Source: Arthrobacter sp. Br18 (GTDB lineage Bacteria > Actinomycetota > Actinomycetes > Actinomycetales > Micrococcaceae). From it: a DNA stretch of 32,018 nucleotides. This document shows positions 13,771-31,682 of the stretch, in pieces. The stretch's first letter is position 1. Each line of letters starts with the position of its first letter. The notes beneath the pieces were generated by a model. It saw only the letters and a program-made list of their open reading frames with translations, was not told the DNA's origin and did not search any database. The stretch spans positions 55,605 through 87,622 of the forward strand of contig NZ_KI914868.1 of assembly GCF_000520555.1 (NCBI RefSeq), in the 5' to 3' direction. The position numbers and the translations under genes are program-made.

Positions 13771-15069
13771 CTACTCGCGTTCGTCGTCGAGGAACTGCTG
13801 GAACGCTTCGTCGGCGGCGTCTGCTGCCGCAGCGACGTCGCCGCCGGTGATGCCGACCACGATCGGGTCGCCGACCACTTCACGGGCTTCGCCGACGTTG
13901 ATGACCAGCGGGCGGTCATGCCCGACGCCGTTTTCTGCACTGACCTCGATGGCTGCAGCGAGGTCCTCGGGGTAGGTCTCGGTGCCGGCGGGGTCCGACC
14001 AGACCGAGTTGCGCGGTCCGGGAACTCCCGCCTGCTGGATCTCCAGGACCATGTCCTTGCTGGTGGCCCACTCGATGAACTTCCAGGCGTTGTCCTGGTT
14101 GTTCGAGGCTTCGTTGATGCCGAGGCCCCACGAAGGAACGTTGTAGGGCTTCGACCCTGCAGGGCCTGCAGGCATCGGCGCGAATCCGACCGTCTCGGCA
14201 ACCTGCGAGTTGGCAGGGTCGGTGGCGTTCTGGTACAGGCTGTCGGCCTCGGTGTAGAACGCGGCGCCGCCCTGGGTGAAGATGGCCATCGCCTCGGGCC
14301 AACTCATGTCGGTGCTGACGTTCGCCGGTCCGTACTGGTTGATCATGCGTCCGTAGTACTCGTAGGCTTCCTTCGCCTCGGGTGAGGCGACGGCGGAGTT
14401 GCCCTCGTCGTCGATGAAGTCGCCACCGAATCCGTAGAGGAAGCTGGAGAACTGCGTCACCGCCGGTGATTTGCCCGTGCGTGCGACGAAGCCCGCGATG
14501 TCCGGGTTTGCTTCATTGATCTGCTTGGCAGCGGCTTCGAGGTCCTCGAGGGTTTCGGGCACTTCGAGGCCGGCCTGCTCGAGGAGGTCCGTGCGGTAGT
14601 AGAGCACTTCGCGCTCGGTGATCGTCGGGACGCCTACCACCTGGTCCTCGAAGCTGGTGGAATCGACGGGGCCGTCCTGGAAATCGTCCCATTCCCACTC
14701 GGGGTTGGAACTGACCCGCTCGGTGAGATCGGCAAGGTAACCGTTCTGCGCGAAGAGCTTGCCCTCCTGCAGCGGCCGGTACATCATGACGTCTATCTCA
14801 TCCGTGCCGGCGTTGAGCTGCACGTTGTACTGGGCGGACAACTGGTCCTCACCCAGCTGGGTGAGCTCGACGGTGAGGCCGGTTTCTTCCTCGAACTCGG
14901 GAATGGACTCGATGATCTTCTCGGTCCACACGTGGTTTGCAAGGGTGACGCGCACGGTCTCGGAAGCCGCTTCGTCACCCCCGCCGCCACTGCACGCCGC
15001 CAAGGATCCGCCTGCAAGGATGGCTGTGACCGCCGTCATTCCGGCGACCCGCAAAGTTTTGCGTTGCAC
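13771..15069 (-). CDS. CUT1 ABC transporter substrate-binding lipoprotein (family 1)
   Basis: Extracellular receptor of the aldonate-linked importer, about 432 residues. A lipoprotein signal ends LAGGSLAAC, then a Gly/Asp/Glu linker and an SBP_bac_1 domain beginning VRVTLANHVWTEKIIESIPEF. Two starts are possible: ATG at 15090 (439 residues, no SD) or GTG at 15069, preferred here because GGAG lies 5 bases upstream and the signal peptide is then the usual length (Cys26). First gene of the aldonate operon, divergent from the FadR-type regulator. The ligand is inferred from context to be a sugar acid or an oligosaccharide containing one; CUT1 systems usually take di- or oligosaccharides, so a glycoside of galactonate or gluconate is possible. 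Confidence 0.9.
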   Translation of the reverse strand: MQRKTLRVAGMTAVTAILAGGSLAACSGGGGDEAASETVRVTLANHVWTEKIIESIPEFEEETGLTVELTQLGEDQLSAQYNVQLNAGTDEIDVMMYRPLQEGKLFAQNGYLADLTERVSSNPEWEWDDFQDGPVDSTSFEDQVVGVPTITEREVLYYRTDLLEQAGLEVPETLEDLEAAAKQINEANPDIAGFVARTGKSPAVTQFSSFLYGFGGDFIDDEGNSAVASPEAKEAYEYYGRMINQYGPANVSTDMSWPEAMAIFTQGGAAFYTEADSLYQNATDPANSQVAETVGFAPMPAGPAGSKPYNVPSWGLGINEASNNQDNAWKFIEWATSKDMVLEIQQAGVPGPRNSVWSDPAGTETYPEDLAAAIEVSAENGVGHDRPLVINVGEAREVVGDPIVVGITGGDVAAAADAADEAFQQFLDDERE

Positions 15070-15225
15070 TGTTTCTCCAGCTCTCTTCATTGAGTAGCGA
15101 CCGGTGTTGGCGGCGCCAGGAGTAGATGCGCGTTTACATCTGCTATAAAAAGCAATGGTAGTGAGTTAGATCATACTTATGCAACCAGGAGGGTTCATTG
15201 GTATGCGCTTGGTACGCTGTCCGAC
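15070..15225. promoter_or_regulatory. Divergent control region of the aldonate operon and FadR-type gene
   Basis: An AT-rich block at 15135-15180 stands out from the GC-rich surroundings. It contains a minus-strand TATAGC (15147-15142) as candidate -10 of the operon, TGCT-N6-AGCA around it, and a CATA-CT-TATG palindrome at 15172-15181. A perfect AGGAGG is at 15187-15192. The FadR-type protein should bind here, but I cannot pick its operator with confidence. Confidence 0.4.
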
Positions 15226-19739: not shown

Positions 19740-21179
19740 TCAGCCCGGTTCAGGTGCCCGCTGAGCCCAGCCCGTGGCCTGCTCGAATGCGTATGCGACC
19801 TGCAGCAGCTCGACATCCCTGCCGGACGCCGTGGCCAGCTGCAGGCCCACGGGCAGGCCGCCCTCGCTGAAGCCGGCCGGAACCGACACCGCCGGCAGCC
19901 CGGTCGCCGAGATCAGGCACGCTGACCGCATCCAGTCGAGGTACGTTTCGAAGTCCACCCCGTTGACCGACGTCGGATACCGCTCCACGGCATCGAACGG
20001 CAGCACCTGGGTGGCCGGGCTCGCGAAGACGTCGAACGTTCCGAAGAATTGCCGCACACTGTTGTCCAACCGGGTACGAGCCAGGGCTGCGTCCACGAGG
20101 TCCTGCCCTGTCAGTTCCCACCCTTTCACCACGTTCCACCTCACCTCGGGCTTGATGACCTCGCCGTGCTCGATGACCAGGTCGCCGTAGTTCAGCGCGA
20201 AGTCGAACGCCCGGGTGGTACCGAACACCTCGTCGGCGTCGCGCAGGTCCGGGGCGGCTTCCTCCACGGTCGCGCCGAGGTCCGCGAACACGGCGAGCTG
20301 GCTTTCGAGGACGCGCAGCACCTCCCGGTCCACCGGCACACCGAGACCGAAGTCCGCCGACCACCCGATCCGCATCCCTGTCAGGTCCCGCTGCAGGGGA
20401 GCGCTGAACGGACCCAGCACCGGATAGCCGTAGGGCGAAGCGGCGTCGGGGCCGGCAATCGCTGTCATGCCCAGCGCGATATCCTCGACACCGCGCGCCA
20501 TGAGCCCTGCCCGGCCCAGCCAGGACCATGCGTTACGGGTGGGTGCGATCGGCACCACCCCGAGCGACGGCCGGTAGCCCACCACGTTGCAGAACGACGC
20601 CGGAATGCGCAGCGAACCGCCCATGTCGCTGCCGTCGCCGAGCGGCTGGATCCGTGCCGCGATCGACGCCGCCACTCCCCCGCTGCTGCCGCCGGCGCTG
20701 CGCGAGAGGTCGTACGGGTTGACCGTCGTGCCGAAGACCTCGTTGAAGGTGTGCGACCCGGCCGCGAACTCCGGCACGTTCGACTTGCCCGTCGTCACCA
20801 CACCGGCGGCCTTGAGCCGGCCGATGATGAGGTCGTCGAACGTCGGCACGAAATCCCGGAAGATGACCGAGCCCTGCGTGGTCCGCAGGCCCTTCGTGTT
20901 GTTCGTGTCCTTGTGCGTCATGGGCAGGCCGTGCAGGGGCGGGAGGTCGGCGCCCGACGCCGCGAGCTCGTCCGCCGCGAGCGCCAGCTCGGCAGCTCCC
21001 TCGCGGTCCTGCGTCACGATGGCGTTGATTGCACCGTTCACCTCGTCGATCCGTGCGAAGTGCGCCCCGAGCGCCTCCCGCGCCGATATGTCCCGACGTC
21101 GGATGGCACCGGTGAGCGCGGTGGCGGACATCGTGCAGATGTCGGTGCCGGTTGCGCTGCCCGGAGGTGCTTCACTCAT
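19740..21179 (-). CDS. Amidase (amidase-signature family)
   Basis: Amide hydrolase of 479 residues with the Ser-cisSer-Lys triad: K90 (PMTHKDTNN), S165 (SAGGSSGG) and nucleophile S189 (GDGSDMGGSLRIPA). It cuts carboxamides to acid plus ammonia or amine; the family is broad (aryl and alkyl amides, GatA, indoleacetamide) and the substrate cannot be told. There is no GatB/GatC nearby, so it is not the tRNA amidotransferase. The start at 21179 shares ATGA with the stop of the M20D gene, a coupled pair; the frame stays open far upstream only as antisense-like noise inside that gene. Last gene of the amidohydrolase operon. Confidence 0.9.
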   Translation of the reverse strand: MSEAPPGSATGTDICTMSATALTGAIRRRDISAREALGAHFARIDEVNGAINAIVTQDREGAAELALAADELAASGADLPPLHGLPMTHKDTNNTKGLRTTQGSVIFRDFVPTFDDLIIGRLKAAGVVTTGKSNVPEFAAGSHTFNEVFGTTVNPYDLSRSAGGSSGGVAASIAARIQPLGDGSDMGGSLRIPASFCNVVGYRPSLGVVPIAPTRNAWSWLGRAGLMARGVEDIALGMTAIAGPDAASPYGYPVLGPFSAPLQRDLTGMRIGWSADFGLGVPVDREVLRVLESQLAVFADLGATVEEAAPDLRDADEVFGTTRAFDFALNYGDLVIEHGEVIKPEVRWNVVKGWELTGQDLVDAALARTRLDNSVRQFFGTFDVFASPATQVLPFDAVERYPTSVNGVDFETYLDWMRSACLISATGLPAVSVPAGFSEGGLPVGLQLATASGRDVELLQVAYAFEQATGWAQRAPEPG

Positions 21180-22411
21180 GAAGCGGTCCCGACCTTTGAC
21201 AGCAGCGCCGTCATCGCCGCCCGCACACCGGTGGTCAGCGTCGGCTCGATCTGCGGCGCGAAGAACGGCGAGTGGTTCCCGGGAGGCGGGGTGTCGCCGT
21301 CGAGCTTGTCCTGCGGGTGGCCGCCGAAGAACCAGTACACGCTCGGCACTCCGATGGCCTCGGCGAGGAGCCCGAAGTCCTCGCTGCCCATCACCGGCGG
21401 CGACTCGATCACCGCGTCCTCGCCGAGCACTCCGCCCAGTACGTCCATCAGGTCCGCGGTGGAGGAAGGATCGTTGTAGCACTGCGGGAAACTCGAGATC
21501 TCTGAGATCTCGGGCGACGGCGCCCCCGACGCGTCAGCCTCTGCTGCGAGAATCCGCCGCAGCGAGCCGAGGACCCGCTCGCGCACTTCCGGATCGAAGG
21601 TCCGCACGTTCAGCGAGAACTCCGCCGATGCCGGAATGATGTTCTCCTTCAACCCGCCGTGGAAGGTGCCGACGGTCACCACCGCCGACTTCATGGGGTG
21701 CACCTCGCGCGCCACGATCGTCTGAATGCGCACCACCATGTGCGCGCCGAGCACGATGGGATCGATCGACTGCTCGGGCTGCGAGCCGTGCGCCTGTTTC
21801 CCGTGCACGATCACCTTCCAGGAATCCGCCATCGCCATCGCGGTGCCCTTGCTGATGTTCACCGTCCCGGCGAGCCCCGGCCACACATGCTGTCCGTAGA
21901 TGATCGACGGCTTGGGCGCCTTGTCCCACAACCCGTCCTCGACCATCGCCTTCGCCCCGGCCCCGGTTTCCTCCCCCGGCTGGAAGATGAACACCACGGT
22001 TCCTGCCCACGCGTCCCGATTCTCCGTCAGCAGCTGCACCGCGGTGAGCGCCACAGTGATGTGGGTGTCGTGCCCGCAGCCGTGCATCACCGGCACCTCC
22101 GTGCCGTCGGCCAGCGCGCCCGTCGTCGTGCTCGCGTAATCGAGCCCGGTGTCCTCCTGCATCGGCAGGCCGTCGGTGTCGGCGCGGTAGCCGATCACCG
22201 GACCGTCGCCGTTGCGCAGGATCCCGACGACGCCGGTTCCGCCGCACAGGAACGAATCGAGTCCGAGGTGGGTGAGTTTTTCAAGGATGAACGCTGCCGT
22301 GTGCGTCTCCTGCATGGACAGTTCGGGGTGCGCGTGGAGGTGCCGATAGAGCTCGTGCATCGAGGATTCGTGCGCTTCGGAGAGGTGAAAGACGGCGGTG
22401 TCGATGGTCAT
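21176..22411 (-). CDS. M20D-family amidohydrolase (N-acyl amino acid hydrolase type)
   Basis: Two-metal peptidase-family hydrolase, 411 residues. Metal ligands and catalytic residues are visible: C112 and H114 in MHGCGHD, E147/E148 in QPGEETGAG, H175 in YGQHVWPG, and H380 in GNHSPFFAP. The dimerisation-lid motif HGKQAHGSQPE lies near 203-213. Family members release amino acids from N-acyl, N-benzoyl or indole conjugates. The start at 22411 is supported by AAAGGAAA just upstream. It lies 29 bases after the 241-residue membrane protein gene and overlaps the amidase gene by 4 bases. Confidence 0.92.
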   Translation of the reverse strand: MTIDTAVFHLSEAHESSMHELYRHLHAHPELSMQETHTAAFILEKLTHLGLDSFLCGGTGVVGILRNGDGPVIGYRADTDGLPMQEDTGLDYASTTTGALADGTEVPVMHGCGHDTHITVALTAVQLLTENRDAWAGTVVFIFQPGEETGAGAKAMVEDGLWDKAPKPSIIYGQHVWPGLAGTVNISKGTAMAMADSWKVIVHGKQAHGSQPEQSIDPIVLGAHMVVRIQTIVAREVHPMKSAVVTVGTFHGGLKENIIPASAEFSLNVRTFDPEVRERVLGSLRRILAAEADASGAPSPEISEISSFPQCYNDPSSTADLMDVLGGVLGEDAVIESPPVMGSEDFGLLAEAIGVPSVYWFFGGHPQDKLDGDTPPPGNHSPFFAPQIEPTLTTGVRAAMTALLSKVGTAS

Positions 22412-22440
22412 GGGTTTCCTTTCGGGGGACGGGAGGAGGT

Positions 22441-23166
22441 CTAGTTGACGAGCGTAGTGGGCGCCGCAGCGTCCTTGCGGGAGCGCAGGAACCAGGCGAG
22501 CGTCGCGGTGAGCAGCACGACGATGCCGGTGGCGGGCTTCGCGAGGGCCGGGACGGCGGGCACCAGGACGAAGAGGACCAGCAGGGCGACCGCGAAGGCG
22601 ATCACGGTAACGCGGGGCTGCCGCACTGTGACAATCAGCTGCACGAGGACCGCTCCGATGATGCTGGGGAAGATGTACAGGCGGGCGACGTCGACGACGT
22701 CCGCCGGGATGATGCTGACCAGGTAGGTGCCGAGCACCCCGACGAAGAGCAGCATCGAGAACACGTGCACCATCGCCGCGCCGCAGATGGCCATCAGGGC
22801 GGAGAACTCTCCGCGCTTGGTACCGGCCTTCGCTCCGATGGTCGCCTGCGCCACCAGCGCCGAGGGCAGGAGTTTGTTGGCGATGTTGCCGATCATGAAC
22901 GCCTGGTACATGGCGGCCGGGCCGAGCACCGGGAAATAGGTGATGGGCTCCACGAACCACAGCACGAAGAAGGCGGCAGCCACTGCGAGGTAGGCGGCCC
23001 AGATCATGCTCCCGGTGATGCCGAGGTCCGTGGAGAACACCAGATAGACCGGTGCAGCGAGGGAGAGGATGAGGGCGGTGATCATGGTGATCCGGCCCCA
23101 GCGGGTGGTGGTGCGGTCGAACTCGGCGATGGAGCCCGAGGTGGCCGCGGCAGTGCGTGAAGACAT
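22441..23166 (-). CDS. Polytopic membrane protein, putative partner of the DUF5058-like protein
   Basis: Hydrophobic protein of 241 residues with about seven predicted helices (for example ITMITALILSLAAPVYLVF, MIWAAYLAVAAAFFVLWFV, VTVIAFAVALLVLFVLV). A conserved-looking loop MYQAFMIGNIANKLLPSA then ATIGAKAGTKRGEF sits between helices 2 and 3. I do not recognise the family. It lies 29 bases downstream of the DUF5058-like gene and 29 bases upstream of an M20D hydrolase gene, all in one direction, so I infer it forms a two-subunit transporter with its neighbour. There is no binding protein or ATPase in the operon. The start at 23166 is chosen for AAAGGG upstream and a polar N-terminus; the frame continues to 23520 only over the neighbouring gene. 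Confidence 0.8.
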   Translation of the reverse strand: MSSRTAAATSGSIAEFDRTTTRWGRITMITALILSLAAPVYLVFSTDLGITGSMIWAAYLAVAAAFFVLWFVEPITYFPVLGPAAMYQAFMIGNIANKLLPSALVAQATIGAKAGTKRGEFSALMAICGAAMVHVFSMLLFVGVLGTYLVSIIPADVVDVARLYIFPSIIGAVLVQLIVTVRQPRVTVIAFAVALLVLFVLVPAVPALAKPATGIVVLLTATLAWFLRSRKDAAAPTTLVN

Positions 23167-23195
23167 CGTTTTTCCCTTTCGAGGAGGAATACTGC

Positions 23196-23951
23196 CTAGG
23201 CCGCCGGGGCCATGCCGGAGGTGTGGGCGATGTAGGCGACGGCGAGGCCCACCAGGATAGAGATGCCGAGCCCCCACTCCCGCAGCCAGGACGCCGACAT
23301 CGCTTTGGCGAGCAGCAGGCAGACGAACATGGTCGCCGCGGAGACGAGGATGGAGATGATGTGGACGGGTGTCTTGCCGAACTCGGCGACGCCAAGGCTC
23401 GCGAACGCCCCGATGAGCGCCGCGGCGGGGACGATCATCATGAGGGCGGGATTCACCCTGCGCAGCTTCGAGTCTCCCCGTGTGAGGATGGGCGTGAGAA
23501 TCAGCGTGGCGAGCATCCACCCGGCGCCCGACAGGCTCATGGCCATGAAGGCCACCACGAAGACCGCCTGCGTGTAGTCCGGCCCGCCGAGGGCTGCGCC
23601 CATGGTGCCCGCTGCGAGGCTGGCGGATGCCGATTCAGTCGCCGCCGATCCCACCAGCCCGATCCGCACCAGCACGGCCGGTGTGCCGAAGAGGGTCAGG
23701 AGCGCAATGCTGACCAGCACGACGGCGAGGGACGGCCCGATCGCCGCCACTGCGCCCGCACGGAACGAGTCCTTCAGCTCCGCGGCCGAGATGTCGGCGG
23801 CCGGGCCTGCCTTCTTCGCGGCCTTCATGTAGACCAGGGACTGCACGATGATGGCGCCGAAGACGCCGATGGCCAGGACCCACAGGACCGGCAGGTTCGC
23901 GATGCCGAGGATGTCCGTGGATGCTCCCTCGGGCGTGAGTGTTGTTTTCAT
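23196..23951 (-). CDS. DUF5058-family-like membrane protein
   Basis: Polytopic protein of 251 residues with six to seven helices. The N-terminal ANLPVLWVLAIGVFGAIIVQ, then SFRAGAVAAIGPSLAVVLVS and GTPAVLVRIGLVGSAATES, resemble the uncharacterised DUF5058 family as I remember it; this needs a profile search. Family function is not established; genes I recall near it are often amidohydrolases or M20 peptidases, as here. GGAG lies 5 bases before the ATG. It sits between a Zn-dependent amidohydrolase gene (25 bases upstream) and the second membrane protein gene (29 bases downstream), consistent with a transporter for the hydrolases' substrate. Confidence 0.8.
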   Translation of the reverse strand: MKTTLTPEGASTDILGIANLPVLWVLAIGVFGAIIVQSLVYMKAAKKAGPAADISAAELKDSFRAGAVAAIGPSLAVVLVSIALLTLFGTPAVLVRIGLVGSAATESASASLAAGTMGAALGGPDYTQAVFVVAFMAMSLSGAGWMLATLILTPILTRGDSKLRRVNPALMMIVPAAALIGAFASLGVAEFGKTPVHIISILVSAATMFVCLLLAKAMSASWLREWGLGISILVGLAVAYIAHTSGMAPAA

Positions 23952-23976
23952 GGCTGCTCCGAACTGAGAAGGATGT

Positions 23977-25251
23977 TCATGGGGTTGCCGTCACCCGTGT
24001 CAGGTCGGCGGTGTCGAGGGCCTGCAGTGCGTGGACCAGCGCCGTGACGCCGGTCGCGATGTCGCTGGTGTCGCTCCACTCCTCGGGGCAGTGGCTCTTG
24101 CCTGCCCGTGAAGGGAGAAAGATCATGCCCATCGGCGCCAGCGTCGCCATGTGGACGGCGTCGTGGGTCGCCCCGCTGGGAATGGGCATCCAGGGGATGC
24201 CGAGGGTGTCCGCCGCAGACGCGACGACGTCCTGGACTCCGGGACTCGCGTGCACCACCTCGTTGTCGGTCGACCAGTCGAAATTGACGTCCACACCGTA
24301 TTCCCCGGCTTTGGCGAGGATTTCGCCGGTCAGCCGGCCCTTGACACCGCCGAGCCAGCTGGTGTCGACGCTGCGGACCTCGCTCATCATGCGCACCAGG
24401 GACGGCACCACGTTCGGCGAGCGCGATTCGGACTCGACGCGGGTGGTGGTGGCGACTCCGTGGGTGGGAGCACCGCAGCCCTCGCGGCGGACGGCCAGGA
24501 CGGCTTCGGCGGCAGCGATCATCGCATCCTGCCGGTCCGTCATCGCCGTCGTCCCCGCATGGTCCGCGCTGCCGGAGAAGGTGGCGATGAACCGTTCGAT
24601 GCCGGTGATGGCGGTGACGATCCCGAGCGGCAGTTGCCGCTGCTCGAGCGTCGGCCCCTGCTCGATGTGCAGTTCGAGGAAGGCGTGGAGCGGTTTTCTC
24701 GCCCACTGGACCTGCGTCAGCGCATCGGGGTCGAGGCCGAAGTCCGTGTAGGCCTGGCCGAGGCTGACCCCGCGATAGTCCTTCCGGTCGAGATCCGCCG
24801 GCGTCAGCTCCCGTGCGGCGGCGCGGCTGCCGAGGCAGCTCAGGCCGAAGACGTTGGATTCCTCGCCGAGGAAATCCACCACGAGCAGGTCCCGGGAGAG
24901 CCGCGTTCCGGACTCCCGCAGTTGACGTGCGGCCTCGATCGCCCCCACCACACCTACGATGCCGTCGAACCGCCCACCGCCGTCCACGGTGTCGGTGTGT
25001 GATCCCGTAACGAGGGCGGGTGCGTTCGGACTGGCTCCCTCGAGTCGCCCGATGATGTTGCCGGCGGGGTCGGTCGAGACGTCGAGTCCGGCGTCCCTCA
25101 TCCGTGCTGCTGTCCACTGGCGTGATTCCCGGTAGGGAGCGCTGAACACTTCGCGCGTCCAGCCGTTCCGGTCCGGATCCCGGTATCCGGCCAGTTCCGT
25201 GATGCCCGAATCGAGGCGCTCGATGGTGCCGGTGTCGTGGTCGCTCGTCAT
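23977..25251 (-). CDS. Zn-dependent hydrolase, N-carbamoyl-L-amino acid hydrolase/allantoate amidohydrolase type
   Basis: M20-clan hydrolase of 424 residues. Metal and catalytic residues: H85 in GSHTDTV, D96 in GRFDGIVG, E130/E131 in FLGEES, H195 in ELHIEQGP, and H387 in KSHCPEEW; SGATHDAVHM (359-368) is the usual substrate-side motif. The group covers N-carbamoyl amino acid, beta-ureidopropionate and allantoate hydrolases, all releasing ammonia and CO2 or ureidoglycolate from a ureido group. AGGAATGT before the ATG is the ribosome site. First gene of the five-gene operon, divergent from a LacI-type regulator; a LacI-operator-like palindrome lies 19 bases before its start. The partly matching racemase-like gene lies at the far end on the other strand. 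Confidence 0.92.
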   Translation of the reverse strand: MTSDHDTGTIERLDSGITELAGYRDPDRNGWTREVFSAPYRESRQWTAARMRDAGLDVSTDPAGNIIGRLEGASPNAPALVTGSHTDTVDGGGRFDGIVGVVGAIEAARQLRESGTRLSRDLLVVDFLGEESNVFGLSCLGSRAAARELTPADLDRKDYRGVSLGQAYTDFGLDPDALTQVQWARKPLHAFLELHIEQGPTLEQRQLPLGIVTAITGIERFIATFSGSADHAGTTAMTDRQDAMIAAAEAVLAVRREGCGAPTHGVATTTRVESESRSPNVVPSLVRMMSEVRSVDTSWLGGVKGRLTGEILAKAGEYGVDVNFDWSTDNEVVHASPGVQDVVASAADTLGIPWMPIPSGATHDAVHMATLAPMGMIFLPSRAGKSHCPEEWSDTSDIATGVTALVHALQALDTADLTRVTATP

Positions 25252-25461: not shown

Positions 25462-26481
25462 ATCGCACAGCACACTGCCTCCGCGGGGCATCCGCGCGTC
25501 ACCCTGGCAACAGTGGCCCGCCACGCGCAGGTGCACATCTCGACAGCCTCGCGGGCGCTGGGCGACGACGCCGCCGGGGTGAGCGCCGAGACGGTCCAGC
25601 GCGTGCGGGAACTCGCGGCGATGCTCGGCTACCGGCGTGACGTCGGCGCGGCGGGCCTGAGGACCGGAAGTTCCCGGCTCATCGGCGTCCTGGTTCCCCG
25701 CCTCACCGACATCGTGCTGGCCACCATCTACGAGAGCATCGACGTCGCAGCCGGTGCCGCCGGGTACAGCACCGTCGTGGCGAACACGCTCGACGACGCC
25801 ACGCACCGCCGTTCACGCCTTGACGCCATGCTCTCGAGGCGCATCGACGGCGTCATCATCGGCGACTCGCACCTCGGCGACACGGCTGCGTTCGAGCTGC
25901 AGAAGCTCGGGGTCCCCTACGTGCTGGTGATGCGGAAACTCGAGGGGCACTTGTCCATCACCACCGATGATCACCGTGGTGGGCGCCTTGCCGCCGAGCA
26001 CCTGCTGGGGCTGGGTCACCGGCGGGTTGGTGTCATCGCGGGGGATCTGCTGGCCAGCACCGGCATCGAACGCACCGAGGGGTTCCGGCGGGCGTTCGAG
26101 GCGGCGGGTTATCCGATCGATGACCGGTACGTCATCAGTTCCGGTTTCGACACCAGGGGCGGTCTGGCTGCCGGGACGCAGCTGATGAAGCTGGCCGAAC
26201 CTCCCACCGCGATCTTCGCGGTGAACGACTTCATTGCCCTGGGCGCCATGGGTGCGATCCGCGACGCCGGCAGGAAGCTGCGGGAGGATGTGGCGCTGGT
26301 GGGGTACAACGACATCGACCTCGCGGCAACCCTGCCCGTCCCGCTGACTTCAGTGCGATCGGAGCTGGGCGAGATGGGCAGGCTCAGTGTCCAAGCACTG
26401 CTGCAGCGAATGGAGGGTTCATCAGCGGAGTCGGTCCTGCTCCCACCGGTGCTGGTGCCCCGAGCGACGACGGTCGGCTAG
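25462..26481 (+). CDS. LacI-family regulator with apparent ATC start codon
   Basis: Repressor-type regulator of about 339 residues: helix-turn-helix RVTLATVARHAQVHISTASRAL, hinge near 60-80, then a periplasmic-binding-like effector domain (SRLIGVLVPRLTDIVLATIY to the end). The frame opens at 25450 and holds no ATG or GTG before GTG 25513, which would cut off VTLAT from the first DNA-binding helix. ATC at 25462 lies 7 bases after a perfect AAGGAG and gives a natural N-terminus (MAQHTASAGHPRVTLAT if initiated with Met). Either a rare ATC start, a start-codon mutation lowering expression, or a base error. It is divergent from the amidohydrolase operon and likely its repressor, although LacI proteins usually sense sugars. 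Confidence 0.85.
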   Translation: MAQHTASAGHPRVTLATVARHAQVHISTASRALGDDAAGVSAETVQRVRELAAMLGYRRDVGAAGLRTGSSRLIGVLVPRLTDIVLATIYESIDVAAGAAGYSTVVANTLDDATHRRSRLDAMLSRRIDGVIIGDSHLGDTAAFELQKLGVPYVLVMRKLEGHLSITTDDHRGGRLAAEHLLGLGHRRVGVIAGDLLASTGIERTEGFRRAFEAAGYPIDDRYVISSGFDTRGGLAAGTQLMKLAEPPTAIFAVNDFIALGAMGAIRDAGRKLREDVALVGYNDIDLAATLPVPLTSVRSELGEMGRLSVQALLQRMEGSSAESVLLPPVLVPRATTVG

Positions 26482-27335: not shown

Positions 27336-28376
27336 ATGACGACTATCCGGGATGTCGCCAAGCAGGCCGGGGTCTCCCCCGCCACGGTCTCCCGCGTCGT
27401 CAACGGTCTCGTCGGATACTCGGACGAGACACGCAAACGGGTGGAAGACGCCGTGCTGCGGCTCAACTACGAGCCCGATTCGCTCGCCCGGACACTCAAG
27501 ACGCGCCAGACCTCCGTCATCGGCCTGCTCGCCCCGATGGTGTCCGACGCCCTGGCCTCCCAGGTGATGCGCGGCGTCGAAGACGCCGCGCGCGAGCACG
27601 GCTACGCCGTCATGCTCGGCCGTACCGGCCTGAAGTCGGCCTACATCGCGGGCTACCTCCGGACGCTGCGCACCTACCGGGCCGCCGGTGTCATCCTCAT
27701 CTCTGCCGTCATCACTCACGACATGCGTCAACTCCTCGGCCCGGCGATCCCCATCATCTCCGTGGCGATCAGTGACAAGTCGGGGTCGCCGAGCGTCGCG
27801 ATCAATGACGAACTTGCCGCCTACGACGCCACGCGGTATCTCCTCAAGCTCGGCCATCGGCGGATCGGACTGCTCGCGGGCGATCCGGTGTCCATCTTCG
27901 TCGCCCGGCCCCGCCGGCGCGGCTACGAGCGCGCCATGGCCGAAGCCGGCTGCAGCCCGGTGATCGCGGAGGGCACGTTCTTCTACGAGAGCGGAGCACC
28001 CGGCCTCGAGGAACTGCTGCGGCAGGAGCCCGAGCTCACGGCCGTCTTCGCCATGAGCGATGAAATGGGTGCCGCGGTCGTCAACGAACTCCAGAAGCGT
28101 GGCCGCAGGGTTCCCGAGGACGTCTCCGTCCTCGGCTTCGACAACACCTCGACTTCCCAGCACGTCCATCCGCCCCTCAGCACCATCGCGCAGCCGCTCG
28201 AGGACATGGGACAAATGGCCGTGAAGAAGCTTCTTCGATCCCGTGACCTCGGGCCGAGGATCATGCCGCACCGCCTCATCGAACGCGGATCGACGGCGGC
28301 ACCGCGGGCCGGTTCCCAGCGGCAGCACCAAGTATCACCTGCAGAACAAAAACAATCACCAAGGAGCACTACATGA
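27336..28376 (+). CDS. LacI-family regulator of the alpha-glucoside operon
   Basis: Full-length regulator, 346 residues. Helix-turn-helix TIRDVAKQAGVSPATVSRVV (3-22) with hinge helix DSLARTLKTRQT, then the effector domain starting SVIGLLAPMVSD. The tail after residue 325 is Gln/Ser/Arg-rich and probably disordered. The strong site GGGGAGG lies 5-6 bases before the ATG. It is the first gene of its own operon: its stop shares ATGA with the start of the binding-protein gene. Together with upstream palindromes this indicates autoregulated repression lifted by an alpha-glucoside or its derivative. Confidence 0.93.
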   Translation: MTTIRDVAKQAGVSPATVSRVVNGLVGYSDETRKRVEDAVLRLNYEPDSLARTLKTRQTSVIGLLAPMVSDALASQVMRGVEDAAREHGYAVMLGRTGLKSAYIAGYLRTLRTYRAAGVILISAVITHDMRQLLGPAIPIISVAISDKSGSPSVAINDELAAYDATRYLLKLGHRRIGLLAGDPVSIFVARPRRRGYERAMAEAGCSPVIAEGTFFYESGAPGLEELLRQEPELTAVFAMSDEMGAAVVNELQKRGRRVPEDVSVLGFDNTSTSQHVHPPLSTIAQPLEDMGQMAVKKLLRSRDLGPRIMPHRLIERGSTAAPRAGSQRQHQVSPAEQKQSPRSTT

Positions 28377-29707
28377 GGCAACGTCGCCACACCCGGCACA
28401 TTCTTTCCACCACCGCAGCACTCACGATCTCGGCCCTCGCTCTGACGGGTTGCGGCGGCGGCAGCGGAGAGGCTGCACCCGAGTCCTCGCAGGGCGCAGC
28501 CGCATCCGAAGCCGAATTCGAGGGGCGCGGTCCCATCAACTACGTCTCCTCGCGTGACGCCTCCGGAGCTGCCCAGGACAGCCTCGACAAATGGAACGCC
28601 GAGCACCCCGATGAGCAGGTCACCCTCATCGAACTGCCGGATTCTGCGGACCAGCAGCGCCAGCAACTGATCCAGAACGCGCAGATCGAATCGGACACCT
28701 TCAGCGTGCTCAACCTCGACGTCGTCTGGACCTCCGAGTTCGCGGCGAACCGCTGGATCCTGCCCCTGCCCGACGATGCGCTGCCCACCGACACCATGAT
28801 TCCCGCGACGGTCAATGCCGCGTCCTACCGCGACACACTCTATGGAGCCCCCTATTACACGGACGGCGCACTGCTCTACCACCGCACCGATCTCCTGCAG
28901 GCGGCGGGAATCGATGCACCACCTGGGACCTGGGACGAGATGGAAGCGGCCTGTGACGCCGTCCTGGCGCTTCCCGAAGCCGAGGGGATGTCCTGCTATG
29001 CGGGCCAGTTCGACAAGAACGAGGCACTCACCGTGAACTTCACCGAAGCCGTCGCTTCGGCGGGCGGTGCCGTGTACGACGACGAAGGCAATCCGACAGT
29101 CGATACCCCCGAAGCCCTGGCCGGCCTCACCCAGCTGAGCGATGCCTTCACGGACGGCCTCGTTCCGAGCGACGCCATCACATACCTCGAGGAGCAGGGA
29201 CGCCGTGCTTTCCAGGACGGGGATGTGGTGTTCCTGCGCAACTGGCCGTTCGTCTACGCCTCCCTGACCGCCACCGACGGCTCCAGCCAGGTGGTGGACA
29301 AGTTCGGCATCAGCTCGGTACCGGGTATCGGAGAGAACCCCGGCGTCTCCACGCTCGGCGGACGCAACCTCGCCGTCTCGCCGTTCACCACGAACAAGGC
29401 CACGGCCCTGGATTTCATCAAGTTCTTCACCAGCGAAGAGGAATCCCGTGCACGGCTCGACAAGAGCTCGCGTGCTCCGGTCTACGCCTCACTTCTCGAG
29501 GACCCCGCCGTCGTCGAGCAGCGGCCCTTCTACCCCACGCTGCTCGAATCGCTTGAAAACGCCCAGCCCCGCCCGAAGGTCGTCCAGTACGGCGCCACCA
29601 CAACGGCTATCCAGGAAGAGGCGTACGCGGCGCTGACCGGCGAGAAGGATGCCGAGGCTGCGCTTGCCGACATGCAGGCGAAGCTCGAGGAACTGTCCGC
29701 CGAGTAA
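28373..29707 (+). CDS. CUT1 ABC transporter sugar-binding lipoprotein (family 1)
   Basis: Extracellular receptor, 444 residues. Lipoprotein signal ends ALALTGC (Cys27), then an acidic/Ala linker. The mature domain (GPINYVSSRDASGAAQDSLDKWNAEHP) is of SBP_bac_1 type, with LDVVWTSEFAANRWILPL and YGAPYYTDGALLYHRTDLLQ as usual ligand-cleft segments. AAGGAG precedes the ATG, which overlaps the lacI stop by four bases. The GH13 glucosidase gene at the operon end suggests an alpha-glucoside such as trehalose, maltose, sucrose or isomaltose-type sugar; the exact ligand is open. Confidence 0.93.
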   Translation: MRQRRHTRHILSTTAALTISALALTGCGGGSGEAAPESSQGAAASEAEFEGRGPINYVSSRDASGAAQDSLDKWNAEHPDEQVTLIELPDSADQQRQQLIQNAQIESDTFSVLNLDVVWTSEFAANRWILPLPDDALPTDTMIPATVNAASYRDTLYGAPYYTDGALLYHRTDLLQAAGIDAPPGTWDEMEAACDAVLALPEAEGMSCYAGQFDKNEALTVNFTEAVASAGGAVYDDEGNPTVDTPEALAGLTQLSDAFTDGLVPSDAITYLEEQGRRAFQDGDVVFLRNWPFVYASLTATDGSSQVVDKFGISSVPGIGENPGVSTLGGRNLAVSPFTTNKATALDFIKFFTSEEESRARLDKSSRAPVYASLLEDPAVVEQRPFYPTLLESLENAQPRPKVVQYGATTTAIQEEAYAALTGEKDAEAALADMQAKLEELSAE

Positions 29708-29714
29708 CTCCCCT

Positions 29715-29746
29715 GGTGTCCGCCCGGGCTCGCCCGGGCGGACACC
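29715..29746 (+). terminator. Strong intra-operon hairpin after the second sugar-binding protein gene
   Basis: A perfect 15-base stem (GGTGTCCGCCCGGGC and its complement) with only two bases between the arms starts 7 bases after the binding-protein stop. It has no U-tract. Same position and likely role as the hairpin at 13705: partial termination or protection of the upstream mRNA. Confidence 0.7.
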
Positions 29747-29781
29747 ACCCGCCTTCGAACCTGCTTCCCAGTGAGGACCCC

Positions 29782-30792
29782 ATGAGTACGAGAACCGCCG
29801 CGGCTTCGCGGCCGACCCCGGACACCCGGCCGCCCGGACGGAAGAAATCCGGTAAGCGCTCGGCAGGCGAAGGCCGGATGGCCGCGATGCTCCTCTCACC
29901 AACCCTGCTGGTGCTCGCACTCGTGATCGCGTACCCCCTGGTCTCGGCGCTGTACCAATCGATGTTCCGTGAGCAGTCAGGCCTCGATGCCAGCGGCTTC
30001 GTCGCCGAGGGCGAGATCTTCGTCGGGCTCGGCAACTACACCGATCTCTTCGTCGGTGAGTCGGGCGCCCGTTTCCTCAACGCTTTCGGGAACACCACCT
30101 TCTTCACCGTCACCACGGTCGCGCTCGAGACGGTCCTGGGGCTCTGCCTCGCCCTGGCGATGAACCGGGCCTTCCGGGGCCGAAGCTTCCTCCGGGCGAG
30201 CATCCTGATCCCCTGGGCCATCCCCACTGCCGTCTCCGGGCTGCTCTGGCGGTGGATCTTCCAGTCGGACGGTATCGCCAACAGCCTCATCGGCAGTGAG
30301 ATCCTCTGGACCGCCGAAGGCCTGACCGCGAAGATGGCCGTCATCATCGCCGAAGTCTGGAAGACCGCCCCCTTCATCGGACTCCTCGTCCTCGCGGGCA
30401 TGCAGATCATTCCGGAGGAGATCTATGAGGCGGCGAAGATCGACGGTGCGGGCTTCTGGCGCCAGTTCCGTTCGATCACCCTTCCCCTCGTGAAGCCCAC
30501 GCTTCTCGTCGCCGTCCTGTTCCGCCTCCTCGACGCACTGCGGATGTTCGACCTCCCGTTCGTGCTCATCGGTCCCGGCAAGGAATCGGTCGAAACGCTC
30601 TCGATGCTCGCGTGGGACGAGTCGAACCAGCTCCGCTACGGCTCGGCGTCGGCCTTCGCGATCATCCTGTTCCTCTACGTGGCGCTCGTTGCCATCGTCT
30701 TCGTCAAGCTCCTCGGCGCGGACGTCGCCGGGACCAAAGAGGTGCGGGCACTGCGCCGGGCCACCCGCACCCGAAAGGCCAAGGCACTCTGA
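29782..30792 (+). CDS. CUT1 sugar ABC transporter permease (MalF type)
   Basis: Membrane subunit of 336 residues with six main helices after a basic, Pro-rich N-terminus (RPPGRKKSGKR). The docking loop is YEAAKIDGAGFWRQFRSITL then PLVKPT. The start is put at 29782, with GAGGA upstream; the open frame before it (from 29716) translates the hairpin. It lies 74 bases after the binding-protein gene and shares one base (TGATG) with the next permease gene. Confidence 0.93.
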   Translation: MSTRTAAASRPTPDTRPPGRKKSGKRSAGEGRMAAMLLSPTLLVLALVIAYPLVSALYQSMFREQSGLDASGFVAEGEIFVGLGNYTDLFVGESGARFLNAFGNTTFFTVTTVALETVLGLCLALAMNRAFRGRSFLRASILIPWAIPTAVSGLLWRWIFQSDGIANSLIGSEILWTAEGLTAKMAVIIAEVWKTAPFIGLLVLAGMQIIPEEIYEAAKIDGAGFWRQFRSITLPLVKPTLLVAVLFRLLDALRMFDLPFVLIGPGKESVETLSMLAWDESNQLRYGSASAFAIILFLYVALVAIVFVKLLGADVAGTKEVRALRRATRTRKAKAL

Positions 30793-31682
30793 TGACCCAG
30801 ATTCCCGTCCTCACTCCCGTGGAAACACCGGATGACGCCCCCCAGCGCGTGGCATGGAAACGTGGCTGGAAGTCCTACTCCGTGTACCTGGGCCTCGCCG
30901 CGATCCTCGTGTACTGCCTGGCGCCGTTCTACTGGATGCTCGTGTCGAGCTTCCGCCGGACGGCTGATATCTTCGACAACACCCTGCTTCCCCAGCCGTT
31001 CTCGGCCGAGAACTACATCAAGGTCTTCGACGGCTCCACCCTGTTCGGGCAGGCACTGCTCAACAGCCTGATCGTGGCCGGTGTGACGACGGCGGCGGCC
31101 CTGGTGCTGGGCATCTTCGCGGCTTACGCCATATCGCGGCTCAACTTCCGGTTCAAGTCGGTGATCCTCGGCGTCATCATCGCAACATCGATGTTCCCCG
31201 GGATCTCCGTCGTCGTGCCGTTGCTGCGGCTCTTCACCGATATCGGCTGGATCAACACCTACCAGGCCATGATCGTGCCAAACCTGTCCTTCGCCATTCC
31301 GCTGGCCGTGTGGAATCTGACCACCTTCATGAAGGCGCTGCCGTTCGATCTCGAGGAAGCCGCCATGATCGACGGCTGCAGCAAATGGCAGGCGTTCCGA
31401 AAGGTCCTGCTGCCCCTGGCCGCGCCGGGCGTCTTCACCACCGCGATCCTGACCTTCATCCACAGCTGGAACGAGTTCATCATCGCCCTGTCCATGGTGA
31501 ATGATCCGACGGTCCAGACCGCCACGGTTGCGATCTCCAAGTTCACCGGTGCCACCGAGTTCCAGGCGCCGTTCGGCGAGCAGATGGCGGCCGGCGTGAT
31601 CGTCACCATCCCTCTCGTGATCATGGTGCTGATCTTCCAGCGCCGCATCGTCGAGGGACTCACCTCCGGAGCCACCAAGTGA
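30792..31682 (+). CDS. CUT1 sugar ABC transporter permease (MalG type)
   Basis: Membrane subunit of 296 residues with six helices. The docking loop is EEAAMIDGCSKWQAFRKVLL then PLAAPG, and the protein ends GLTSGATK, as MalG-type subunits do. It starts at the ATG that overlaps the upstream stop (TGATG) and ends overlapping the GH13 gene (GTGA), so all three are translationally coupled. As with the aldonate importer, no ATPase gene is linked; a shared MsiK-type ATPase is expected elsewhere in the genome. Confidence 0.93.
   Translation: MTQIPVLTPVETPDDAPQRVAWKRGWKSYSVYLGLAAILVYCLAPFYWMLVSSFRRTADIFDNTLLPQPFSAENYIKVFDGSTLFGQALLNSLIVAGVTTAAALVLGIFAAYAISRLNFRFKSVILGVIIATSMFPGISVVVPLLRLFTDIGWINTYQAMIVPNLSFAIPLAVWNLTTFMKALPFDLEEAAMIDGCSKWQAFRKVLLPLAAPGVFTTAILTFIHSWNEFIIALSMVNDPTVQTATVAISKFTGATEFQAPFGEQMAAGVIVTIPLVIMVLIFQRRIVEGLTSGATK

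Follow-up and report, generated by a model that had tools for sequence, protein, structure and literature searches.

A DUF5058 membrane protein and its unclassified partner: a candidate two-subunit importer beside M20D aminoacylases of bacteria and haloarchaea

The operon and its genes

We analysed a 32,018-nucleotide stretch of the genome of Arthrobacter sp. Br18 (hereafter the window), focusing on five minus-strand genes which encode, in order of transcription, an M20 carbamoylase-like hydrolase, a DUF5058 membrane protein, a second membrane protein of 241 residues (hereafter the partner), an M20D amidohydrolase and an amidase (Table 1). The first four genes are separated by only 25, 29 and 29 nt and the M20D and amidase genes overlap in an ATGA, so a single transcript is likely. 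A promoter scan of the operon found none, and there was one terminator-like site compared with 1.9 in shuffled sequences. The first-pass annotation of the window had described these five co-directional genes, and we confirmed their coordinates and families. It had also noted the lack of an ABC ATPase, a binding protein or a known permease, and we agree: none of the five genes encodes an ATPase, a binding protein, a Pfam-recognised permease or a TRAP subunit, i.e. the operon does not have the make-up of an ABC or TRAP importer.

Library scans gave Pfam matches for four of the five operon genes, all but the partner. In the first scans the amidase carried 2 extra residues and the partner 1, and the M20D protein was scanned against Pfam and NCBIfam as a 393-residue stretch with 12 residues extra at its start and 30 missing at its end. 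The partner was scanned again as the exact 241-residue protein, and matched nothing in either library; no NCBIfam model matched the DUF5058 protein either.

Table 1. Coordinates of the genes under study. Positions are those of the window unless a comparison locus (L number) is given.
Feature	Position	Strand	Evidence and remarks
M20 hydantoinase/carbamoylase-family hydrolase	23977..25251	-	TIGR01879, 315.7 bits against a cut-off of 204; optional member
DUF5058 membrane protein, 251 aa, ~7 transmembrane segments	23196..23951	-	PF16481, 199 bits against a cut-off of 28.2, profile positions 1-222 of 222; proposed first transporter subunit
Unclassified membrane protein (partner), 241 aa, 6-7 transmembrane segments	22441..23166	-	No Pfam or NCBIfam match; proposed second subunit
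M20D amidohydrolase, AgaA-like aminoacylase	21176..22411	-	TIGR01891, 273.5 bits against a cut-off of 153.75 (393-aa stretch)
Amidase-signature amidase, 479 aa	19740..21179	-	PF01425, 308.7 bits; frequent but optional member
LacI-family regulator, divergent from the operon	25513..26481	+	Peripla_BP_3 over its cut-off; LacI helix-turn-helix 25.6 against a cut-off of 27
DcuA/DcuB and AgaA-like M20D	L235:4309-6905	-	Gap 29 nt
DcuA/DcuB and AgaA-like M20D	L237:3295-5899	+	Gap 40 nt
YjiH-YjiG then M20 hydrolase	L164:2947-5236		Serratia plasmid
YjiH-YjiG then M20 hydrolase	L165:2956-5296		Salinivibrio plasmid
YjiH-YjiG then M20 hydrolase	L168:3001-5214		Klebsiella oxytoca plasmid

Two membrane protein families that form one pair

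DUF5058 is rare, exceeding the Pfam cut-off in 3 of 296 genomes of the phylum. Within the order, 42 of 396 whole genomes have a match above it. We searched for the partner with its own profile (A6) in an equally large sample of the order, in which the matched genomes bear the same handles; the PF16481 model is independent of the present analysis. The partner was found at E of 1e-74 or better in 42 genomes, and the two sets of genomes were identical, with 45 copies of each gene, every one of which (45/45) was adjacent to the other on the same strand with 42-122 nt between the matched ends. Among the 45 copies of DUF5058 are a fragment (G560) and one with an internal stop (G331), and the count leaves out weak matches, which do not coincide (DUF5058 in G658 and G342 at 5e-5 and 1e-4; the partner in G557 and G310 at 2e-4 and 4e-4). 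The Fisher probability of this co-occurrence, ignoring the kinship of the genomes, is approximately 1e-57, and these counts exclude a chance association.

Wider searches gave the same picture. A scan of one genome per species found 232 relatives, the best 80 of which are the named loci used below; among these the best match is Arthrobacter sp. H41, with a DUF5058 protein 95% identical to that of the window. The partner lies next to DUF5058 in 79 of the 80 named loci, and the contig of the 80th ends there. All of the named loci are titled as actinobacteria except L036 (WNZI01000006.1), titled Vibrio cholerae strain 35D, which carries an Arthrobacter-type cassette with a DUF5058 protein 86% identical to that of the window and is probably a mislabelled assembly. 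When 72,556 plasmid records were searched with tblastn, DUF5058 was found in 12 and the partner in exactly these records, which come from Actinomycetota (Arthrobacter, Paenarthrobacter), Pseudomonadota (three Paracoccus pantotrophus, Vibrio diabolicus) and six haloarchaea. We inspected 10 of these 12 loci, leaving out two further Paracoccus pantotrophus plasmids (H5 and H7); the partner matches only in two pieces in L114 and only over 117 residues in L121. No match was found in the phage records searched. The two membrane families are one pair, inseparable in our samples. The first-pass annotation had proposed that they belong together, and had counted rare co-occurrence, or membership of either family in a characterised class, as grounds for abandoning the idea; the families co-occur in the samples, and neither could be assigned to a characterised class.

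Hydropathy averaged over alignments gave seven hydrophobic segments for DUF5058 and six for the partner. An alignment of 19 DUF5058 rows from Actinomycetota, an alphaproteobacterium and haloarchaea has 21 invariant columns, including Q37, R96, W145 and E225 (window numbering), and an alignment of 19 divergent partner rows has 15, including E73, N94 and Q107. The conservation of R96, Q37 and E225 in DUF5058 and of E73, N94 and Q107 in the partner would suit the binding of a substrate and an ion within the membrane. Partners from haloarchaea, Paracoccus and Vibrio are recognised by the actinobacterial partner profile at 2e-34 to 5e-41. Comparison of the two families with one another in hhalign showed no homology, the E values for 19 columns being 0.086 and 0.047, and no solved structure matched either profile by sequence at E up to 1. 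A literature search found no paper that mentions DUF5058 or PF16481. Clostridia are said to have the family as well.

The hydrolase and other genes around the pair

M20D is the near-constant third gene of the cassette. By tblastn, 74 of the 78 testable named loci have it after the partner, or 75 of 78 when L104 is counted, which holds a more distant M20D (TIGR01891, 239 bits) that resembles AbgB when the sequence is read by eye. The testable loci exclude L042 and L102, which are cut by contig ends, and broken-looking M20D pieces, e.g. in L077, were counted as present. No M20D was found after the partner in L079, L083 and L086, although in L083 the contig leaves just 1.6 kb. Of the 10 plasmid loci inspected, 8 also have M20D adjoining the pair, upstream of it in Paracoccus; the other two are L114 and L120, which has transposase genes nearby.

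The window M20D carries the motifs HGCGHDTH (110-117), EE (147-148) and H (175), which we take to be its zinc site. The best solved relative of the exact protein is 6slf, the N-alpha-acyl-glutamine aminoacylase AgaA (312 bits versus 179 for the next), presumably from Corynebacterium striatum. The window enzyme is AgaA-like, with N-acyl-glutamine hydrolysis as a putative activity. Elsewhere the nearest solved relatives of M20D differ: that of the Natronococcus enzyme is 3io1, an aminobenzoyl-glutamate utilisation protein (291 bits), and that of the Paracoccus enzyme is YxeP (1ysj, 256 bits).

The first-pass annotation had proposed a transporter made of the two families; the tightness of the pair has been borne out, and transport remains the best reading of it, as an interpretation of gene context. 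Overall we think it quite likely that the pair is a transporter working in one direction or the other. It is very unlikely that the pair is instead a membrane enzyme, sensor or anchor, acting on the acyl product or recruiting the hydrolase to the membrane: the failure of sequence and fold searches to link either protein to a known transporter would suit such a role, but no soluble domain was recognised in either protein, each has 6-7 hydrophobic segments, and the nearest M20D relatives change while the pair stays, which makes a specific docking surface less likely.

The remaining hydrolases are less constant. We counted neighbours in the 75 named cassettes with called genes, leaving out L061, L062, L090, L104 and L108, in which DUF5058 is uncalled, and the window itself. 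The amidase was near 52 of the 75, the carbamoylase near 19 and both near 17. The first-pass annotation had envisaged a peeling sequence of three amide hydrolases, and this does not extend to the cassette in general: only M20D is near-constant and, because the amidase and the carbamoylase are optional, the three-hydrolase pathway would be a lineage-specific elaboration. A hydantoin pathway was considered as the general function and rejected, as the carbamoylase accompanies so few of the cassettes. The Asp/Glu/hydantoin racemase-family gene (PF01177; 19064-19717, plus strand), which is convergent with the operon, was also rejected as a cassette member; its cluster is near 0/75 cassettes and it is probably unrelated.

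AsnC/Lrp-type regulators were near 34 of the 75 cassettes and the LacI-type cluster near 15. The divergent LacI-family gene is probably the regulator of the cassette in the lineage of the window. A second LacI-like gene (27336-28376) precedes the right-hand of two sets of apparent sugar ABC importer genes, which resemble those for solute-binding proteins and permeases and lie distant from the operon at 13771-15090 (minus strand) and 28373-31682 (plus strand); all of these were judged by eye. CoA-transferase III with a carboxyltransferase was near 13 of the 75 cassettes (e.g. L066:11763-12989), and where these genes accompany the cassette the freed acid might be dicarboxylic, such as malonate. 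In the window, the carbamoylase-like hydrolase narrowly missed the cut-off of the ErtE model for N-carbamyl-L-glutamate amidohydrolase (NF058540; 498.8 bits, cut-off 520). Because of this near miss and because M20D is AgaA-like, an acyl- or carbamoyl-glutamine or glutamate type compound is a speculative candidate for the substrate in the window, though with the odds well against it.

The proposed importer and its alternatives

The reading that we favour, and consider somewhat more probable than all others together, makes DUF5058 and the partner the subunits of a single secondary importer that is not driven by ATP. It would take up N-acyl amino acids, or amides closely related to them that carry a free carboxylate, for M20D to split. 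A conserved arginine may bind this carboxylate. Uptake would run down an ion gradient, and the cytoplasmic M20D would then split the acid from the amino acid, both of which would be used. In the Arthrobacter lineage the added amidase and carbamoylase-type hydrolase would widen the range of amides used. We infer complex formation, transport, its direction, the coupling ion and the substrate from gene context throughout.

Gene context beyond the cassette suggests uptake. We examined nine AgaA-like M20D loci (L231-L238 and L240), all from genomes of the order around Rhodococcus in which the search for DUF5058 gave no match. In two of the nine a DcuA/DcuB gene (PF03605, 309 and 299 bits) lies directly upstream of M20D and co-directional with it, as the pair does, although PF03605 is a single-chain transporter. 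In the six haloarchaeal plasmid loci, glycine-cleavage genes lie within 7 kb of the cassette in three (L115, L118 and L122), and glyA, lpdA and lipA (serine/glycine and lipoate/dihydrolipoyl genes) lie within 7 kb in two similar Haloterrigena loci (L117 and L123). Glycine-related genes near five of the six loci would fit an M20D that frees glycine from N-acyl glycine. We also count the AsnC/Lrp-type regulators beside 34 of the 75 cassettes in favour of the importer.

The same data bear on the direction of transport. A pair of small co-occurring membrane proteins without an ATPase would equally suit a two-part exporter of a hydrolysis product, i.e. the freed acid or surplus amino acid, with a layout like AzlCD or YjjPB, and the AsnC/Lrp-type regulators seen near many cassettes are known beside amino acid exporters. 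However, the DcuA/DcuB family, which can take the place upstream of M20D when the pair is absent, is known for uptake and exchange, and the glycine-related catabolic genes fit use of an amino acid, not its export. Export is therefore unlikely.

Several observations weigh against an importer. No known transporter was found to match either protein in sequence or fold. The single-chain AlphaFold models are weak, with pLDDT of 69.8 (DUF5058) and 67.1 (partner), and Foldseek and VIA-align found no usable fold match for either of them; the best Z scores were 6.3 and 6.1, over 53-133 residues among the rows shown, a range that the tool rates as common. The least confident parts of the models are conserved loops, at 83-102 in DUF5058 and within 77-97 in the partner, as might be expected if each protein needs the other. 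Because the partner profile and queries were derived from genes adjacent to DUF5058, they could have missed a divergent partner elsewhere. Pairwise distances across 72 actinobacterial loci are similarly correlated for all three proteins (DUF5058-M20D 0.877), the raw value for partner and M20D (0.909) being slightly above that for partner and DUF5058 (0.899). Of 200 genomes sampled from the order around Rhodococcus, 172 gave an M20D match and 2 a DUF5058 match, and one of these 2 is the sample centre, picked for having the cassette; M20D therefore does not need the pair. In seven of the nine DUF5058-less M20D loci, no permease-like gene lies immediately beside M20D in the same direction, which argues against a fixed rule; one of them (L233) has a 107-residue gene with two hydrophobic segments. 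The sixth haloarchaeal locus, L119, has no glycine genes and beta-oxidation genes instead. Finally, the pair falls short of the sequence similarity expected of the Gate (PF07670) family, as described below.

Some of these points have a counterpart. When M20D distances are removed, the DUF5058-partner correlation is r = 0.51, compared with 0.33 for DUF5058-M20D given the partner, so that the distances offer weak support at best for a DUF5058-partner contact. The two closest relatives of M20D in the Rhodococcus-order sample (68% and 59% identical) come from its two DUF5058 genomes. M20D occurs without the pair, but the pair is hardly ever without M20D.

The YjiH-YjiG system of the Gate family, from Enterobacterales and Vibrionales, resembles the pair in layout: two adjacent, co-directional small membrane proteins (227 and 153 aa, versus 251 and 241 aa for DUF5058 and the partner) directly upstream of a peptidase or amidohydrolase. 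In four of five annotated loci inspected (leaving out L167, which has no annotation), an M20 hydrolase or isoaspartyl dipeptidase (IadA) is encoded after YjiH-YjiG. The hydrolase is M20D-type in Serratia and in Klebsiella oxytoca, where YjiH is a sequence match although absent from the gene table, and another M20 type in Salinivibrio; it is IadA in E. coli K-12, and neither in Vibrio sp. HDW18. The M20 hydrolases suggest that YjiHG too may import amide substrates.

This layout raises the idea that the pair belongs to Gate as a very distant branch, and so is a known kind of system. The LG..G...GNI.N stretch of the partner can be aligned weakly to YjiH across 64 columns (E 0.07 in hhalign), and the best DUF5058 stretch falls on a conserved segment of the YjiH family, though at E 0.47. 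With a broader 14-row YjiH profile (A9), however, the partner reached only E 0.15, at another place than in its 64-column alignment, and the E 0.47 of DUF5058 was obtained with this profile too, whereas the positive controls YjiH and YjiG reached 2.2e-8 and 4.6e-6. A relationship that looked suggestive with few sequences was therefore not upheld. There is also no Gate match among the Pfam families listed for the pair, and none of eight single-chain YjiH-family loci, one of them incompletely annotated nearby, has an M20-annotated gene within 3 kb. We regard this alternative as improbable.

A secondary importer in this position would have a functional counterpart in the AbgT-AbgA/AbgB system for p-aminobenzoyl-glutamate utilisation in E. 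coli, which likewise joins an importer to an M20D hydrolase of an N-acyl amino acid. Among solved structures, the haloarchaeal M20D is nearest to an aminobenzoyl-glutamate utilisation protein. AbgT is one large permease unrelated to the pair, and two small proteins fill its place here. The title of Carter et al. 2007 (a reference in PMC6002978) names both uptake and cleavage. LrgAB/PftAB and the AzlCD and YjjPB systems mentioned above consist of two small membrane proteins without an ATPase or binding protein, i.e. they are two-subunit secondary transporters. Among the families listed in the Pfam and NCBIfam scans there is no link of the pair to any of these systems. In literature searches, no paper was found on an N-acyl amino acid transporter with an M20 amidohydrolase operon, and the exact phrase N-alpha-acyl-glutamine aminoacylase with transporter returned nothing. 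As judged by sequence comparison, the system would be a two-part membrane module beside an aminoacylase, built of two families without relatives found.

DUF5058 has no assigned function and the partner no family model in the libraries searched, and yet the pair is kept in two domains of life. Should it prove to be an importer, two protein families would be named at once, and the way in which bacteria and haloarchaea take up amide-linked amino acids would be revealed. AgaA frees body-odour acids from acyl-glutamine. Micrococcus, Kocuria and Brevibacterium, genera with skin members, are among the best 80 of 232 relatives with the cassette. A 2025 review states that the importer of the precursors in C. 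striatum Ax20 is unknown (PMC12609316). C. striatum has AgaA, whereas DUF5058 was found in only 2 of the 200 genomes of the order around Rhodococcus, none of them identified by name as C. striatum. The chances are about even that the pair represents a new transporter family of bacteria and haloarchaea dedicated to N-acyl amino acids. Such a family would play the part of AbgT for M20D aminoacylases of several types, and would be a candidate for the class of importers that is missing for acyl-glutamine conjugates on skin.

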